IMG/VR virus record: IMGVR_UViG_3300031705_000851
Coordinates: 1 to 24,644 of that record
Source of the DNA: a virus
Direction: 5' to 3' (one strand)
Length of the DNA stretch: 24,644 bases
Below the pieces are notes generated by a model, which ran no database searches, had not been told where the DNA came from, and worked only from the letters and a program-made list of their open reading frames with translations. The position numbers and the translations under genes were made by a program. Each line of letters begins with the position of its first letter. The stretch's first letter is position 1. Shown in pieces: positions 4,276 to 24,121 of this stretch.

Positions 4276-5250
4276 ATGCTTTATAAAACAATTGATACTG
4301 TAGAGTTTGATCTAAATACAGTGTGCAATAGTTATTGTCCACCATGCCACAGATACACAGTGCAAGACGGTGAACTATTTCACAATCCTTACGTAAAACT
4401 TAATTCAAACTTAGACCTGTCTGTAATCGAACGTGTGTTTGAGAACAGTAGATTAACTGATGATTGTTTTGTTGATTTAGTAGGACTAGTAGGTGAACCA
4501 ATTGCACATCCAAACTTTATGGAAATTATAGATATTATTTATAAGCACAAACCTGATGCTGCAATTAATTTGCACACAAATGGTGGATTACGTACTGAGA
4601 AGTTTTTCTTTGATCTAGCTAAAAAGTTTAATAAGAATAGTTGGATTAAATTTTCATTAGACGGATTAGAAGATACAAATGGTATATATCGTATTGGTGT
4701 AGACTATAATAAAGTAGTTGCAAATATGCGAGCATTTATAGATGGTGGTGGCCGTGCAATTTGGAAGTTTATTACATTTGAATGGAATAAACATCAAGTA
4801 GAAGAAGCAGAAGCATTAGCCAAAGAATATGGTTGCTATAAATTTCAACAAGATTGGGATGTCAATGACCTAGATATAGATATATTCATGGCCGCAGCTC
4901 AGAAGAAAATTAATAAAAAAGTTGCATCAAAAGCAGCAGTTTTTATTGATGTACCAAGTAATAGATCAACCAAAATTAAAGATAAATGTTTTTCGTATAA
5001 AAAAATATATGTAAATGCACATGGATATGTTATTCCGTGTTGTATGTTTAATGGTGCATTTACATATGAATCAATGCGTGACAAAACACTTAACTTTATT
5101 AAAGAAGATAGAGAAGAAGATTGGAACAGTTTATATAACAATAGCTTAGAAACTATAATGAGCAATACATGGTGGCAAAAGTTAAAAGACAGTTTTGAAA
5201 CAAAACCATGTGATATCTGTGTAAGCTCGTGTGGTGTTAAATTAGATTGA
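4276..5250 (+). CDS. Radical SAM/SPASM-like protein, copy 2 (324 aa)
   Basis: It is a clear paralogue of the protein at 913. Both start MLY, share the cluster motif (here CNSYCPPCHRYT; C17, C21, C24), LVGLVGEP, LHTNGGLR, FSLDGLEDTNGIYRIGV and the C-terminal PCCMFN. The last cysteines are CDICVSSC (C312, C315, C319). Two different proteins of one tight subfamily suggest two related substrates or a pair working together. The substrate is unknown. Like copy 1 it has a late box four bases upstream and no ribosome binding site. It needs two or more Fe-S clusters per chain, which links it to iscS and iscU in this window. Confidence 0.85.
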   Translation: MLYKTIDTVEFDLNTVCNSYCPPCHRYTVQDGELFHNPYVKLNSNLDLSVIERVFENSRLTDDCFVDLVGLVGEPIAHPNFMEIIDIIYKHKPDAAINLHTNGGLRTEKFFFDLAKKFNKNSWIKFSLDGLEDTNGIYRIGVDYNKVVANMRAFIDGGGRAIWKFITFEWNKHQVEEAEALAKEYGCYKFQQDWDVNDLDIDIFMAAAQKKINKKVASKAAVFIDVPSNRSTKIKDKCFSYKKIYVNAHGYVIPCCMFNGAFTYESMRDKTLNFIKEDREEDWNSLYNNSLETIMSNTWWQKLKDSFETKPCDICVSSCGVKLD

Positions 5251-14836: not shown

Positions 14837-15075
14837 TGTTACATACTGTAGAAGCACTAATAAACAAAATAAACGTAATGCACACAAAAGCAATTTATTT
14901 ACATAGGCTTCGAAATCAGTTTTCAGAACATGCAGAACAAACATACGACCATATAGAATGTCAGGCTATTATAGACGATATACAAGCAATGGCACTGCTT
15001 ATTGCAAAAGACACACAGGGTACAGAGATCAAAACAGAGATGGAATATAAGAAATTTTTAAAGGATGACAAATGA
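14836..15075 (+). CDS. Small helical hypothetical protein (79 aa)
   Basis: ATG 14836 overlaps the exonuclease stop (TAATG) and is preceded by GAGG seven bases upstream. The product is helical and fairly charged with several His (HRLRNQFSEHAEQTYDHIE mid-protein) and no hydrophobic segment. The 3' end overlaps the guaC start by four bases. The family is not recognised, though similar small helical proteins are frequent next to exonucleases in T4-like phages. Confidence 0.65.
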   Translation: MLHTVEALINKINVMHTKAIYLHRLRNQFSEHAEQTYDHIECQAIIDDIQAMALLIAKDTQGTEIKTEMEYKKFLKDDK

Positions 15076-16235
15076 GAATAGATGAAGATGTAAAATTAGA
15101 CTACACTGATGTACTAATTAGGCCAAAGCGTAGCACATTGGGATCACGTAAAAGCGTCGATGTAACTCGATCTTTTAACTTTCGTAATTATGAAACACCT
15201 GTTGCAATAAAAGCACCACCTGGAATAGACCCAACTGATTATGTTGGTGTTCCGATTATAGCAAGTAACATGGATGGTGTTGGCACATTTGAAATGGCAG
15301 ACACACTAGCTAAACAACAAGTTATGACTTGTTTAGTTAAGACATACAGCGTAGAACATTTAGCCGCATACTTTGGTACAGATAGTGTAGAACGTAAAGA
15401 GTTTGTAGCAATGAGTATAGGCATTACAGATCGAGACGCAGACAAGTTTAGACAGGTATATGCACAAGTAAGCAAAGGAATGAAATACGTTTGTATTGAT
15501 GTAGCCAATGGCTATAGTGAACGGTTTGGTAATTTTGTAAGACTATTCAGAAAAGAACATCCACATTTAGTAATCATTGCAGGTAACGTAGTTACTGGAG
15601 AAATGACAGAGGAGTTAATCTTAAATGGCGCAGACATTGTTAAAGTTGGAATTGGACCAGGATCAGTGTGTACAACAAGAATTCAAACAGGAGTCGGGTT
15701 TCCGCAACTTAGTGCAGTTATTGAATGTGCAGATGCGGCGCATGGACTTGGTGGAATGGTTATCGCTGACGGGGGTTGTAATTGTCCTGGTGATGTGGCT
15801 AAGGCTTTCGCTGGTGGTGCCGACTTTGTAATGCTAGGTGGTATGCTTGCAGGACACAACGAGGGCGGTGGTGATGTTATTACTAAGCATTACGAAACAA
15901 ACGAACTTGTATACGAAATAGGCAGTCACTTGGATAAGCATACAAAGAAAATTGAAACAAAAGAGTTTGTAGCATTCTACGGAATGAGTTCAGATGCAGC
16001 AAATACAAAACACTTTGGTGGACTTAAAGATTATCGTAGTTCAGAAGGACGTGAAGTATTAGTTCCATATCGTGGAGCAGTAGAAAGCACGATTCAAAAC
16101 ATATTAGGTGGTATACGTAGTACATGTACGTATGCTGGTGCAAAACAACTTAAACATCTTGGGCGTTGCACAACATTCGTAAAGGTACACAACCAATTTA
16201 ATCGTGTATACGAAGGCACTACAACAAAAACATAA
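15072..16235 (+). CDS. guaC: GMP reductase (387 aa)
   Basis: It is a TIM-barrel enzyme of the IMPDH/GMPR family. The catalytic loop is GIGPGSVCTTR with C200, followed by GVGFPQLSAVIECADAAHG, IADGGC and the phosphate-binding GGADFVMLGGMLAGHNE. The loop sequence and lack of CBS domains favour GMP reductase over IMP dehydrogenase. GMPR converts GMP to IMP with NADPH, feeding guanine nucleotides back towards adenine. That suits replication of an AT-rich genome, though this is inference. It is about 40 residues longer than the E. coli enzyme, with extra sequence around residues 45-58 and 270-295. It ends the operon begun at 13155. Confidence 0.92.
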   Translation: MRIDEDVKLDYTDVLIRPKRSTLGSRKSVDVTRSFNFRNYETPVAIKAPPGIDPTDYVGVPIIASNMDGVGTFEMADTLAKQQVMTCLVKTYSVEHLAAYFGTDSVERKEFVAMSIGITDRDADKFRQVYAQVSKGMKYVCIDVANGYSERFGNFVRLFRKEHPHLVIIAGNVVTGEMTEELILNGADIVKVGIGPGSVCTTRIQTGVGFPQLSAVIECADAAHGLGGMVIADGGCNCPGDVAKAFAGGADFVMLGGMLAGHNEGGGDVITKHYETNELVYEIGSHLDKHTKKIETKEFVAFYGMSSDAANTKHFGGLKDYRSSEGREVLVPYRGAVESTIQNILGGIRSTCTYAGAKQLKHLGRCTTFVKVHNQFNRVYEGTTTKT

Positions 16236-16355
16236 GTTTAAAGCAGGTATGCGTGTAGTGCATATCGACTTTGCATAAATAGCTTTGGTTTATTGCAGTC
16301 ATATGTGATAAATAGAAGTGTAAGAAGATAGTACATTACAACGTTGTATTATTTA

Positions 16356-16518
16356 GAGCGACCTCGGCTCAGAAAAAAAGAGCGGCAGTTAGTGCCACGC
16401 TAACTGACTATGGGAAAGACCATGGCATAACCCATGCCTTACAAGCGACACACTTACCAGGTGTTGTGGTAGCAGCCAGGAGAGACTGGCAATAACGGAT
16501 GCTTTCCCAAAAACATCC
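16356..16518 (+). ncRNA. Candidate structured RNA (riboswitch-like leader or ncRNA)
   Basis: This 309-base gene-free stretch (16236-16544) folds densely. CAGTTAG/CTAACTG (16386-16406) is a seven-pair hairpin with loop TGCCACG. GGCAT/ATGCC is at 16424-16438, TACCA/TGGTA at 16455-16471 and GCCAG/CTGGC at 16475-16490. TGGGAAAG (16411-16418) pairs perfectly over eight bases with CTTTCCCA (16502-16509), which itself lies in the loop of GGATG/CATCC (16497-16518). CGACAC (16446-16451) can pair with GTGTTG in the third hairpin's loop. Two pseudoknots are therefore possible. GAGC (16356), GCTC (16367) and GAGC (16380) offer mutually exclusive pairings. I cannot match it to a known class. Upstream, 16236-16355 holds two TAAATA-G boxes (16276, 16310) and the palindrome ACAACGTTGT. 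Confidence 0.5.
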
Positions 16519-16544
16519 ACATATAATATAATTAGGAGAAGTCT

Positions 16545-16733
16545 ATGACTACCAATTTTTTTGGTGCATGGGCAGATCTCTTCAATGGCGCACGACTTAG
16601 TCGTACGAGATATGAGGCTGAACTGCTCACTTATGCAAAAACAGAATATTCACAAGACTGGCAATATGCTTATCAGCATATGCTAGACAACGATGGCCAT
16701 GGTCCACGCACAAAGCGAGGAGTAATGGTATGA
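16545..16733 (+). CDS. Small hypothetical protein (62 aa) downstream of the structured RNA
   Basis: The ATG follows the ribosome binding site TAGGAGAAG and is 26 bases after the last helix of the candidate RNA. The product (NFFGAWADLFNGARLSRTRYEAELLTYAK...) is soluble and aromatic-rich with a basic C-terminus. It is the first of four overlapping small genes ending in a DUF1127 gene. Some DUF1127 proteins carry similar short Tyr/Arg helices, but no direct match is claimed. Function unknown. Confidence 0.7.
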   Translation: MTTNFFGAWADLFNGARLSRTRYEAELLTYAKTEYSQDWQYAYQHMLDNDGHGPRTKRGVMV

Positions 16734-16906
16734 TTGAACAGTTAGTAAAACGTTATCAAAAAGCAATGCTAAGCCGAGAAGAGAAATGGCTAGCAAACTC
16801 AAGTGATCTAGTTGAGCTAGAAAGACGTCAAAGAGAATTACAACGTGGAAATGCACCTTGGCAAAACGCCCAGTTGACAAATCCCAATCTACGGGGGCAT
16901 GTATAA
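16730..16906 (+). CDS. Small basic helical protein (58 aa)
   Basis: It starts by ATGA overlap with the preceding gene and has AGGAGTAATGG just upstream as ribosome binding site. The product is a single charged helix-forming chain (KRYQKAMLSREEKWLANSSD, then ELERRQRELQRG) with a short tail. Such proteins can bind nucleic acid or protein partners, but nothing is diagnostic. Its stop overlaps the next ATG (TAATG at 16904-16908). Confidence 0.6.
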   Translation: MIEQLVKRYQKAMLSREEKWLANSSDLVELERRQRELQRGNAPWQNAQLTNPNLRGHV

Positions 16907-17097
16907 TGACTAGTACAGCACTATACCTAACAACTTGTAAAGTATGCGAAGTACTTAAACAAGTCATGCTAACAACATTAATGCTTATATGGGCTTTTGG
17001 TGAATCAGCCGGAAGAGCAAGAGCGGCCAGCGAATTAGCTAGACTTGGTTATCACAAAGAATCCAAGGTATTAATGTTACAAGGAAAAATAAAATGA
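16906..17097 (+). CDS. Small membrane or amphipathic protein with CxxC (63 aa)
   Basis: ATG 16906 overlaps the previous stop and gives MTSTALYLTTCKVCEVLKQV, in which CKVC is a CxxC pair. A hydrophobic stretch at about 20-32 (VMLTTLMLIWAF) is followed by a GRARAASELARLGY segment that resembles the Arg/Ala/Leu pattern of small DUF1127-like proteins. A TTG at 16858 would extend it upstream but would overlap the preceding gene. Function unknown. Confidence 0.6.
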   Translation: MTSTALYLTTCKVCEVLKQVMLTTLMLIWAFGESAGRARAASELARLGYHKESKVLMLQGKIK

Positions 17098-17267
17098 AAC
17101 TTATCAGAACACTAAAAAATATGATGGCTTCTAGCTATGATAGAAAAGCATCTCAACAGTTACACAGAATGACTGACAGAGAACTTGCTGACATTGGAAT
17201 ATGTCGTGGAGATATTACAAGGATATGTAGAACACAGGCTACTTTTGCGAGAAAATACCAAATGTAA
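17094..17267 (+). CDS. DUF1127 (YjiS-like) small protein (57 aa)
   Basis: The core LHRMTDRELADIGICRGDI (residues 24-42) is the DUF1127 signature (L..LsDrELaDIGlsRgdI). It is preceded by a basic helix and followed by an Arg-rich tail ending ARKYQM. DUF1127 proteins are abundant in alphaproteobacteria, where some act in RNA turnover and stress or nutrient responses by binding RNA or RNases. A copy in a phage was probably taken from such a host. It overlaps the previous gene (ATGA) and is followed by a strong terminator, so it closes the 16545-17267 operon. Confidence 0.85.
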   Translation: MKLIRTLKNMMASSYDRKASQQLHRMTDRELADIGICRGDITRICRTQATFARKYQM

Positions 17268-17293
17268 CAACCTATTGTTATCTTTACATTAAA

Positions 17294-17328
17294 AGTCGTA
17301 TACTGTTCCCTCGGTATGCGGCTTTTTT
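17294..17328 (+). terminator. Rho-independent terminator
   Basis: AGTCGTATAC pairs with GTATGCGGCT over ten positions (two or three G-U), loop of ten bases, then six T. It closes the small-gene operon. Confidence 0.85.
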
Positions 17329-21067: not shown

Positions 21068-22282
21068 ATGACAGCTCCAACATATATGGATTATTCAGCA
21101 ACAACACCGGTAGACCACCGAGTTGCTAAAAAAATGGCAGAATGCCTAACAACAGAAGGCACATTTGGAAATGCAGCTTCACGCTCTCATTATTATGGGT
21201 GGCAAGCCGAAGCGGCAGTAGACAAAGCACGTAAACAAGTTGCAGATTTAGTAGGAGCAGATCCTAAAGAAATAGTATGGACATCTGGCGCCACTGAATC
21301 AAACAATTTAGCAATTAAAGGTATTGCACACTTTTACCAAAAGCAAGGTAAACATATCATCACACTAAAGACAGAACACAAAGCAGTATTAGACACTTGC
21401 CGTCAGCTAGAACGTGAAGGATTTGAAGTTACTTATATGAATCCATTACCAAGTGGACTGTTGGACATAGAAGAGTTCAAATCTATTTTAAGAGAAGATA
21501 CAATTCTAGCGTCATTTATGCACGTTAATAATGAAATTGGTGTTATACAAGACTTACATACAATTGGTGATATTTGCAGAGCAAACAAAACATTCTTTCA
21601 TGTAGATGCAGCACAGTCAGTTGGTAAACTCCCAATTAACTTAACAGAACTTCCAGTTGATTTAATGAGTTTCTCAGCACACAAGATTTATGGTCCAAAA
21701 GGCATGGGTGCATTGTATGTATCACGTAAGCCAAGAGTTAGGCTTGAAGCACAAATGCATGGTGGTGGACACGAACGTGGAATGCGTTCAGGCACATTAG
21801 CTACACATCAAATTGTTGGAATAGGCGAATCATTTGCAATAGCACAAGAAATGATGGCAGAAGAAGAAGTTAGAACACGTAATCTTAGAGATAGGTTATA
21901 TGCTGGCTTTTCGGACATGGAAGAAGTAAAAGTAAATGGCGATATGGAACAACGTATTGGCAATAACTTAAATATCAGTTTTAATCACGTTGAAGGTGAA
22001 TCATTAATGATGGCAATAAATGGTATTGCAGTATCATCTGGTTCAGCATGTACATCAGCAAGTTTAGAACCGTCTTACGTTCTTAGAGCATTAGGATTGC
22101 CAGATGAATTATCGGCCAGCTCTATTCGTTTCAGTGTAGGACGCTTTACAACTGAAGAAGATGTAGATAACGCAATTGTACTCGTTAGAGAAAAAGTAGA
22201 AAAGTTAAGAGAACTATCGCCACTATGGGATATGTACAAAGATGGAATTGATTTAAACACAGTAGTATGGGCTGCTCATTAA
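21068..22282 (+). CDS. iscS: Cysteine desulfurase IscS (404 aa)
   Basis: It is full length with the same numbering as E. coli IscS. The PLP lysine is K206 in [12 protein letters not shown], and catalytic C328 is in the mobile loop [18 protein letters not shown]104 and D180 are also in place. The end ([21 protein letters not shown]) matches the IscU-binding tail. It takes sulfur from cysteine and passes it as persulfide to the scaffold IscU, encoded 30 bases downstream, or to tRNA thiolation enzymes. IscR, HscA/B, ferredoxin and IscA are absent, so host partners would be needed. A dual promoter lies upstream; the ribosome binding site is weak. Confidence 0.96.
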
Positions 22283-22723: not shown

Positions 22724-22730
22724 ATAAAGG

Positions 22731-22761
22731 TTGACAATTTATACACTCTCATGTATAAATA
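22731..22761 (+). promoter_or_regulatory. Overlapping sigma70 and T4-late promoters for the tmRNA
   Basis: TTGACA (22731-22736) is 17 bases from TATAAA (22754-22759), and the same bases extend to TATAAATA (22754-22761), the exact late consensus. Both predict +1 at about G22767. TTATACA-N6-TGTATAA (22739-22758) is an inverted repeat covering the spacer and -10. Confidence 0.75.
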
Positions 22762-22766
22762 ACATT

Positions 22767-23032
22767 GTAACGTTGAAACAAGCTAAACGACGAGCTGGAC
22801 CTGGGGGCAGTACCCAGCAGCTCCACCATAAACACATTGCACAGTTAGTGTGCTTATGATGGGGCTGAACAAGGATCGACAGGCGGATTAATAGGCGAGT
22901 GGAGTTACCCGGATCTAAGCACGGTTATCGCGAAGAAACTTTATAATTGCAAATGACAATTATGCGCCAGAAATGGCCTTAGCAGCTTAGACTGCTAGTG
23001 AGGTAGCTATACCTTATTACCCAAACTAGTAG
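22767..23032 (+). ncRNA. ssrA: Permuted two-piece tmRNA, alphaproteobacterial type
   Basis: The acceptor piece comes first and ends CAGCTCCACCA at about 22827, with a T-arm CTGGG/CCCAG. The coding piece begins at 22861 with GGGGCTGA. GGGGCTG pairs with CAGCTCC over seven positions, including the G3-U70 wobble read by alanyl-tRNA synthetase. GGATCGAC follows as in other tmRNAs. The tag frame (22949-22990) reads ANDNYAPEMALAA-stop, starting GCA AAT GAC. The stop lies in the loop of TAGCAG/CTGCTA (helix 5). The spacer 22828-22860 would be excised. The tag ends LAA, a ClpX degron. The exact processed ends are estimates. Confidence 0.95.
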
Positions 23033-23059
23033 AAAGGGTGTCTTAGGGCACCCTTTTTT
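23033..23059 (+). terminator. Rho-independent terminator of the tmRNA
   Basis: AAAGGGTGTC pairs with GGCACCCTTT (one G-U) around TTAG, followed by a T run. Confidence 0.9.
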
Positions 23060-23064
23060 GTGAT

Positions 23065-23073
23065 TATAAATAC
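23065..23073 (+). promoter_or_regulatory. T4-type late promoter, consensus box, leaderless arrangement
   Basis: TATAAATAC, four bases (taac), then ATG at 23078. It sets the start of the third radical SAM gene at 23078 rather than at an upstream in-frame alternative start at 23060. Confidence 0.7.
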
Positions 23074-23077
23074 TAAC

Positions 23078-24121
23078 ATGATCTACTCAAAGAATCCTAA
23101 AATACTACAACTAGAATTAAGCAGTATGTGTAATGCATTATGCCTAGGATGTCAGCGAGTTGATCCAAATACATTTAATAGTGTACTACCCAGTATTCCA
23201 AAGAAAGAAATAATCGCAGTAGACATAATACGTAAATTAATTAATAGTCCTAGAATGTCTGGAATAGAAGAAGTAGAATTTTGTGGAACTATTGATGAAC
23301 CACTAATGCATCCAAACTTTATGGAAATCATAGATGTTATATATGAAGCAAATCCACTTATAGAAATAAAAATACATACAAATGCAAGTCTACGTACACC
23401 GCAGTTTTGGAAAGACTTAGCACACAAGCTATCTAAGTTTAAAGGACATAAAGTATTATTTGGTATAGATGGACTAGTTGACACACATGTTATATACAGA
23501 CAGCAAACAGACTTTGATCTTATTATTAGAAACGCAATACATTTTATAGGTGCAGGCGGTAAAGCACAATGGCAGTATATTATATTTCCATGGAACAAAC
23601 ATCAAGTAAATGAAGCACGTGATATGAGTAAACAAATTGGCTTTGCAGAATTTAAAACTCGTAATGACAGAAGTGGAGTAAGCGAAGATGGATTAAACGA
23701 AATCCGAAAAATACAACAAAATGGGGGAAAGTCTAAACTAGGCATTAATGCTAACAAATTCAATGGTTACAAAATTAGTTGTATGAACAAGGAAGATGAT
23801 ATGTTTCATGTTTCGTACGATAGTAGATTATGGCCATGTTGTTATTTTGGAAATGTGCAATACATGGGACCTACGTTGTATGATGAATTTAAAAAAAGAA
23901 TATTTGGGGTGTATGGAGAAGATTTTAATTTGCTCACTAAGCACACAGTAGAAGAAATATTAGATTCAGAGTTATATAAAAATGATTTAGTAGAGTCTTG
24001 GAATAATCCAATCGGGTGTGGTAGCAAAGATAAAGTAAATCGGTGTGCAATGTCATGTAGTGTAAAAGCACTTGAAACAAGACCAATTGCAACAGCTCAC
24101 GAAGTTACAAAAAACTTTTAA
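23078..24121 (+). CDS. Radical SAM/SPASM-like protein, copy 3 (347 aa)
   Basis: The cluster motif is CNALCLGC (C18, C22, C25). It shares with copies 1 and 2 the layout IDEPLMHPNFMEIIDVIY, IHTNASLRT, FGIDGLVDTHVIYR and IFPWNKHQVNEA. The C-terminal cysteines are C in KISCMNKED, WPCCYF, and CGSKDKVNRCAMSC. It is more diverged: LHTNGG becomes IHTNAS and the last cysteine group is spread wider. This implies a different substrate within the same fold. Its neighbours are the tmRNA and tRNA-Glu. It has no ribosome binding site and is predicted leaderless from the late box. Confidence 0.85.
   Translation: MIYSKNPKILQLELSSMCNALCLGCQRVDPNTFNSVLPSIPKKEIIAVDIIRKLINSPRMSGIEEVEFCGTIDEPLMHPNFMEIIDVIYEANPLIEIKIHTNASLRTPQFWKDLAHKLSKFKGHKVLFGIDGLVDTHVIYRQQTDFDLIIRNAIHFIGAGGKAQWQYIIFPWNKHQVNEARDMSKQIGFAEFKTRNDRSGVSEDGLNEIRKIQQNGGKSKLGINANKFNGYKISCMNKEDDMFHVSYDSRLWPCCYFGNVQYMGPTLYDEFKKRIFGVYGEDFNLLTKHTVEEILDSELYKNDLVESWNNPIGCGSKDKVNRCAMSCSVKALETRPIATAHEVTKNF

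Follow-up and report, generated by a model that had tools for sequence, protein, structure and literature searches.

The 24,644-nt stretch of viral DNA analyzed here (the window; IMG/VR record IMGVR_UViG_3300031705_000851) carries a structured RNA that, judged by comparison with its homologues, is a member of a real, uncatalogued family with a well-supported fold; it is very likely to be a new and genuine regulatory RNA. Its conserved, covarying structure and fixed distance 5' of homologous genes make a cis-regulatory leader the most likely function. To our knowledge, marine phages have yielded few regulatory RNAs so far. None was reported when pelagimyophages were scanned with a riboswitch tool (PMC7029224). 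A widespread, covarying, single-copy leader before DUF1127-type genes would offer a direct way to ask when and why such host-like small proteins are made by phages; among their bacterial relatives, CcaF1 binds RNA and others bind the phosphate kinase PhoR.

Extent and folding of the RNA

The RNA lies in a 309-nt gap (16236-16544) bounded by an IMP dehydrogenase/GMP reductase-like gene (15072-16235) on its 5' side and by a 62-aa open reading frame (ORF) that begins at 16545. A preliminary description had given the coordinates of the whole gap, with the hairpins in about 160 bases of it; the gap is indeed non-coding, but these coordinates were generous, as only about 165 nt are conserved. In the first four homologous viral contigs, which were reached via ORF 1, the edges of the RNA are sharp at about 16355 and 16518, and the flanks diverge (Table 1). 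Genes similar to the IMP dehydrogenase/GMP reductase-like one also precede the RNA in L011 and L034.

Pairing exceeds that of shuffled sequence. On the plus strand, positions 16350-16520 reach -54.8 kcal/mol, compared with -39.0 ± 3.5 kcal/mol in shuffles (z = -4.58, with none of 200 shuffles equaling it), and the entire gap gives a z-score of -4.56. Five to seven hairpins are predicted in the gap, in keeping with the earlier count of at least five. Because shuffled sequences fold as well as several of the homologues do (z from +0.6 to -2.0), the z-score alone is insufficient, and comparative evidence carries the case. Homologues of this kind are what chance folding would produce, and an A-run after the hairpins scores as terminator-like on the minus strand; even so, we consider it highly improbable that the structure is a chance fold or a minus-strand terminator, as the plus-strand structure has compensatory changes, the minus strand folds with a z-score of only -1.04, and the adjoining annotated genes are on the plus strand.

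Table 1. Features of the leader RNA and the genes behind it, in window coordinates
Feature	Position	Strand	Remarks
T4-late-like promoter element GATAAATA, probable transcript start	16307-16314	+	Inferred from motif
Conserved structured leader RNA	16355-16518	+	Fold z -4.6; sharp conservation edges; about 70 homologous contigs
5' H-type pseudoknot	16356-16382	+	Compensatory changes in both stems
Pseudoknot stem S1, GAGC with GCTC	16356-16359 with 16367-16370	+	G-C to A-U
Pseudoknot stem S2, CTC with GAG	16363-16365 with 16380-16382	+	C-G to U-A
Pseudoknot A-rich linker	16371-16379	+	
Hairpin CAGTTAG/CTAACTG, window group only	16386-16406	+	Absent from L011, L014, L018, L034, L050, L079, L141
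Hairpin B, ATGG - loop GAAAGA - CCAT	16410-16423	+	Arm permutation, p = 0.0009
Long-range complement, 5' half, TGGGAAAG	16411-16418	+	Exact complement of 16502-16509
Hairpin C, GGCAT - AACCC - ATGCC	16424-16438	+	99% of cells paired
Linker TTACAAG (some ATACAAG)	16439-16445	+	Conserved
Hairpin D, CGACAC (16446-16451) with GTGTTG (16461-16466)	16446-16466	+	Arm permutation
Hairpin E, GCCAG - loop GAGAGA - CTGGC	16475-16490	+	99% paired; permutation p = 0.04
Hairpin F, GGATG - CTTTCCCAAAAA - CATCC	16497-16518	+	Directly 5' of ribosome-binding site
Long-range complement, 3' half, CTTTCCCA	16502-16509	+	In F loop
Shine-Dalgarno (SD) AGGAGA of ORF 1	16534-16539	+	
ORF 1, 62 aa	16545-16733	+	Family with AKTEYxxDWxYAY
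ORF 2, 58 aa, DUF3563	16730-16906	+	PF12086, E = 6e-7
ORF 3, 79 aa by ORF listing	16858-17097	+	Family GRARAAxELxRQGYxxEAKxLM
ORF 4, 57 aa, DUF1127	17094-17267	+	PF06568, E = 1e-8
Terminator-like hairpin closing the transcription unit, after the DUF1127 gene	17291-17326	+	15-bp stem and T-run

Homologues in uncultured phages

About 70 other IMG/VR contigs, all from uncultured phages, carry the RNA. Members beyond the first four were collected with DNA patterns taken from the RNA, which brought in much shorter and strongly diverged forms, and the distinct sequences comprise 41 cores and L141. As the patterns were derived from the TTACAAG linker and from hairpins B, C, and E, the constancy of those stretches, including an invariant TACAAG in the alignment, is partly by construction; the patterns covered little of helices D and F or of the 5' pseudoknot. 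A covariance-model search returned one match each in 72 of 73 sources, the exception being a cultured phage, and each of 12 contigs searched whole (two exceeding 200 kb, up to 205 kb) held exactly one copy. Whole modules can be missing: hairpin B from L111-L115, the 5' pseudoknot from the L119-type group, and hairpin D from L013-type members.

A BLAST search with the RNA against 50,697 phage records found nothing beyond short chance matches. Among 84,980 species genomes of bacteria and archaea, one exact pattern, which would miss more divergent host copies, matched twice, and both matches were judged by their sequence to be chance. Within the family, the F hairpins (CATGCT AACCANAA AGCATC) look swapped between L103 and L128 on one side and L084 and L120, whose B hairpins differ, on the other, which suggests recombination inside the RNA.

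Covariation of the helices

The preliminary description had proposed looking for covariation among homologues, and compensatory changes were found in helices B, C, D, and E and in the 5' pseudoknot. By comparison of members, helices B to E covary: in a sequence-only alignment of 30 members, 10 of their pairs had changed on both sides, and 89% of cells were paired, versus 81% after shuffling and no more than 46% after sliding. Ten diverged members, aligned separately, gave a concordant result. Hairpin D varies in both sequence and length. With arms read by hand, the 14 distinct arm pairs of its inner 5 bp were paired at 69 of 70 positions with their own partners and at 41.2 when permuted, and none of 20,000 permutations did as well. 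Hairpin B, with 11 distinct stem pairs, gave 39 of 44 against 32.4 (p = 0.0009), and together these permutations refute chance folding. Hairpin C shows an A-U to G-C change in three sequences, and the stem of hairpin E occurs in homologues as CCAG/CTGG, CCGG/CCGG, GCGG/CCGC, and CAGG/CCTG. All members have a hairpin at the position of F, elsewhere with stems such as TGCT/AGCA, GTGA/TCAC, or GTAA/TTAC, and CC is always present in its loop. The loops of B and E resemble each other, and that of B reads GANAGA in every member that has the hairpin. In L084 (6980-7092), hairpin D has the loop AAAAGA between GG and CC, which makes three loops of the B/E type in that RNA.

Two pseudoknots had been suspected, and the RNA does contain one with compensatory changes. 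At the 5' end, an H-type pseudoknot pairs loop CTC(A) with tail (T)GAG to form S2, of which the window group retains just 3 bp, and the first stem of the pseudoknot changes from GAGC/GCTC to AAGC/GCTT in relatives; the compensatory changes in this module represent few independent events. Strong independent support for the fold as a whole comes from L141, which was found last, was not used to build the model, and scores 96 bits. This sequence keeps A to F with new base pairs, namely CACC/GGTG in S2, CTAG/CTAG in B, CCAGG/CCTGG in E, and a new D.

A pseudoknot built on the eight-base pairing between the loops of hairpins B and F is not clearly supported. In the window group, TGGGAAAG and CTTTCCCA are perfect complements; other members keep part of this pairing, and a homologous AGGAAAG/CTTTCCT pairing appears in the minimum-free-energy folds of L119 and L141. 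Covariation is lacking, however: own partners matched at 6.35 of 8 positions and partners swapped between types at 6.30 (p = 0.41), which leaves this long-range helix compatible with the sequences but unproven. The idea of a switch among three GAGC/GCTC segments is not supported. The alternative GCTC:GAGC pairing lacks compensatory changes and is weakened or broken in relatives (broken in 5 of 18 sequences), while the first stem shifts to AAGC/GCTT.

Downstream genes, promoter, and distance to the start codon

As the preliminary description stated, ORF reading and Pfam place the RNA ahead of a four-gene operon that ends in DUF1127. ORF 1 is without a Pfam or PHROG match, and ORF 3 may truly start at 16906. 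At all loci with readable downstream genes, the RNA leads a related set of tiny ORFs, the order of which varies; where the L111-L115 loci are readable, a DUF1127-like ORF comes first. In L079, L112, and L115, the mini-operon is followed on its 3' side by a gene for a 144-aa secreted protein, a putative blue-copper protein that looks pseudoazurin-like by eye.

The 3' end of the RNA lies 26 nt from the first tiny ORF in the window. In 40 of 41 distinct cores, its distance from the start codon is 21 to 33 nt, the exception being L021 (10 nt), which has a deletion. No terminator was found between the RNA and ORF 1. This fixed distance, together with the missing terminator, fits a leader that acts in cis on translation or mRNA stability. 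It also bears on the possibility that a small RNA is released from the leader to act in trans, for example as a sponge via purine-rich GGA loops. The loops of B and E are purine-rich and contain GGA, as such a sponge would need, but the missing terminator 3' of F, the short and fixed distance to the start codon, and the occurrence of a single copy always at the mini-operon make this very unlikely.

A T4-late-like promoter probably starts the transcript. The ATAAATA octamer is found 5' of the RNA in 40 of 41 distinct cores, and ATAAATANNNGTG occurs once in the window against 0.21 expected, with TATAAATA no commoner there than chance. One unlikely alternative draws on this motif, on the 5'-side pseudoknot, and on the stable hairpin near the SD: the RNA might sense nothing and simply protect an abundant late mRNA at its 5' end while attracting ribosomes. 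Sequence conservation of the loops and linkers exceeds what a plain barrier would need.

A tblastn search found the ORF-3 family in no cultured phages other than the Melnitz methylophages, which have a related three-gene operon and the TATAAATA motif. Despite this operon and promoter motif, no match to the leader RNA was found in them; the operon can therefore do without the RNA.

Comparison with known RNA classes

No Rfam family matches the RNA. At the gathering threshold, Rfam 15 gave only tmRNA and tRNA matches in the window and ten homologous loci, all elsewhere in the sequences, and permissive scans of three members (E up to 5-10) gave only chance-level matches. Likenesses to the cobalamin-riboswitch B12 box and to signal recognition particle (SRP) RNA had already been doubted, and neither the Rfam cobalamin model nor the SRP models produced a match.

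Among known classes, the preQ1-I riboswitch shares its architecture with the 5' end of this RNA: both are H-type pseudoknots of a 5' leader in which the third loop is A-rich. The sequence differs, however, the pseudoknot here is just the 5' module of a larger RNA, and preQ1-I was rejected for want of an Rfam match and because the tail is (T)GAG or TGAAG instead of CUA, where the class needs an ACUA tail. Downstream-peptide riboswitches precede short ORFs. Like the glnA glutamine riboswitches, they are RNA leaders of marine bacteria and phages, but neither class matched by covariance model at E up to 5-10 in the three members scanned. Protein-bound hairpins such as boxB of the phage lambda N system are, like those described here, short, purine-loop hairpins of a phage leader; boxB has a pentaloop, unlike the GANAGA hexaloop.

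A Sinorhizobium meliloti DUF1127 gene is likewise regulated by a 5' leader RNA, which acts via a translated upstream ORF and Rho-dependent termination (PMC12218461). That upstream ORF has no shared counterpart in the phage leaders sampled: in a sample of every third leader, the short frames differ and mostly lack an SD. As indels between members are also not multiples of three, an attenuator of the S. meliloti kind was rejected.

A new riboswitch is the main rival to feedback by a protein, although we think it rather unlikely. In such a scheme, a metabolite bound by the pseudoknot, the TTACAAG linker, and the loops would shift structure near the ribosome-binding site. This would suit a compact multihelix 5' leader with conserved linkers and a preQ1-I-like pseudoknot, and riboswitches do occur in related marine phages, such as the glutamine (glnA type) riboswitch reported in Melnitz (PMC9004378). 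Set against it are the lack of any Rfam riboswitch match at E up to 5-10, downstream genes without a metabolic function that would hint at a ligand, and the absence of modules A, B, and D from some members, which is unusual for an aptamer.

Possible mode of action

We give about even chances to the proposal that these RNAs form a new family of phage cis-acting leaders that set the translation or stability of a DUF1127-type mini-operon, perhaps via a protein on the GANAGA loops. According to this proposal, the T4-late-like promoter would start an mRNA of about 1 kb, with the RNA within its first 220 nt or so. Comparison with homologues shows that the leader begins with the H-type pseudoknot and continues as a tandem series of hairpins (B, C, D, E, and F), the last of which ends about 25 nt before the start codon of ORF 1. 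A binder on the conserved loops, above all those of GANAGA type in B and E, could then change the openness of the ribosome-binding site via F and neighboring pairings, and thus translation or stability of the mini-operon.

Translation is favored over attenuation because the element is close to the SD. One point against a translational switch is that no conserved pairing hides the SD: in the window, 5 bp could form between UUUCC in the loop of F and GGAGA in the SD, but only 2 to 3 bp are possible in L103, L128, and L013, and this pairing was rejected as a conserved feature.

The most straightforward binder would be an RNA-binding protein, as suggested by the likeness of the B and E loops (and of D in L084). 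The lack of hairpin B in L111-L115 and the Melnitz operon without a match to the RNA count against the proposal as a whole. One guess is that the binder is one of the operon's own small proteins, which would give feedback control. CcaF1, an alphaproteobacterial DUF1127 protein, binds mRNAs and sRNAs (PMC10253847), and it is this, with the similar loops, that makes feedback by an operon protein the simplest guess. In Agrobacterium, however, small DUF1127 proteins work via the kinase PhoR (PMC12501420), so it cannot be assumed that the phage proteins bind RNA.

A bolder version, which we hold only tentatively, is that the RNA is a phage-confined class that senses a ligand or protein, with a separate pseudoknot module and GANAGA hairpins, and that it times the DUF1127-type mini-operon late in infection. 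If true, such a sensing RNA would link host takeover to a cellular signal.

Phages and hosts

The phages are probably marine, judging by their kinship with Melnitz. Of the 11 sequences searched over their full length at Rfam gathering thresholds, 3 (the window, L013, and L034) contain an alphaproteobacterial permuted tmRNA, which hints at alphaproteobacterial hosts; in the window, it is a permuted two-piece gene at 22727-23059. Permuted two-piece tmRNA genes are known in marine phages, and that of Melnitz has been argued to be acquired (PMC9004378). Because phage tmRNAs can be acquired, the tmRNA does not settle the host. The main evidence for kinship with T4 is the promoter motif and the single contig, of 10 tested, in which the T4-like major capsid family was found.

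Elsewhere, the window encodes three radical-SAM-like proteins (913-1902, 4276-5247, and 23060-24118) and a 404-aa protein matching PHROG 12787 (21068-22279), for which two of the best phage-record matches are annotated as cysteine desulfurase.
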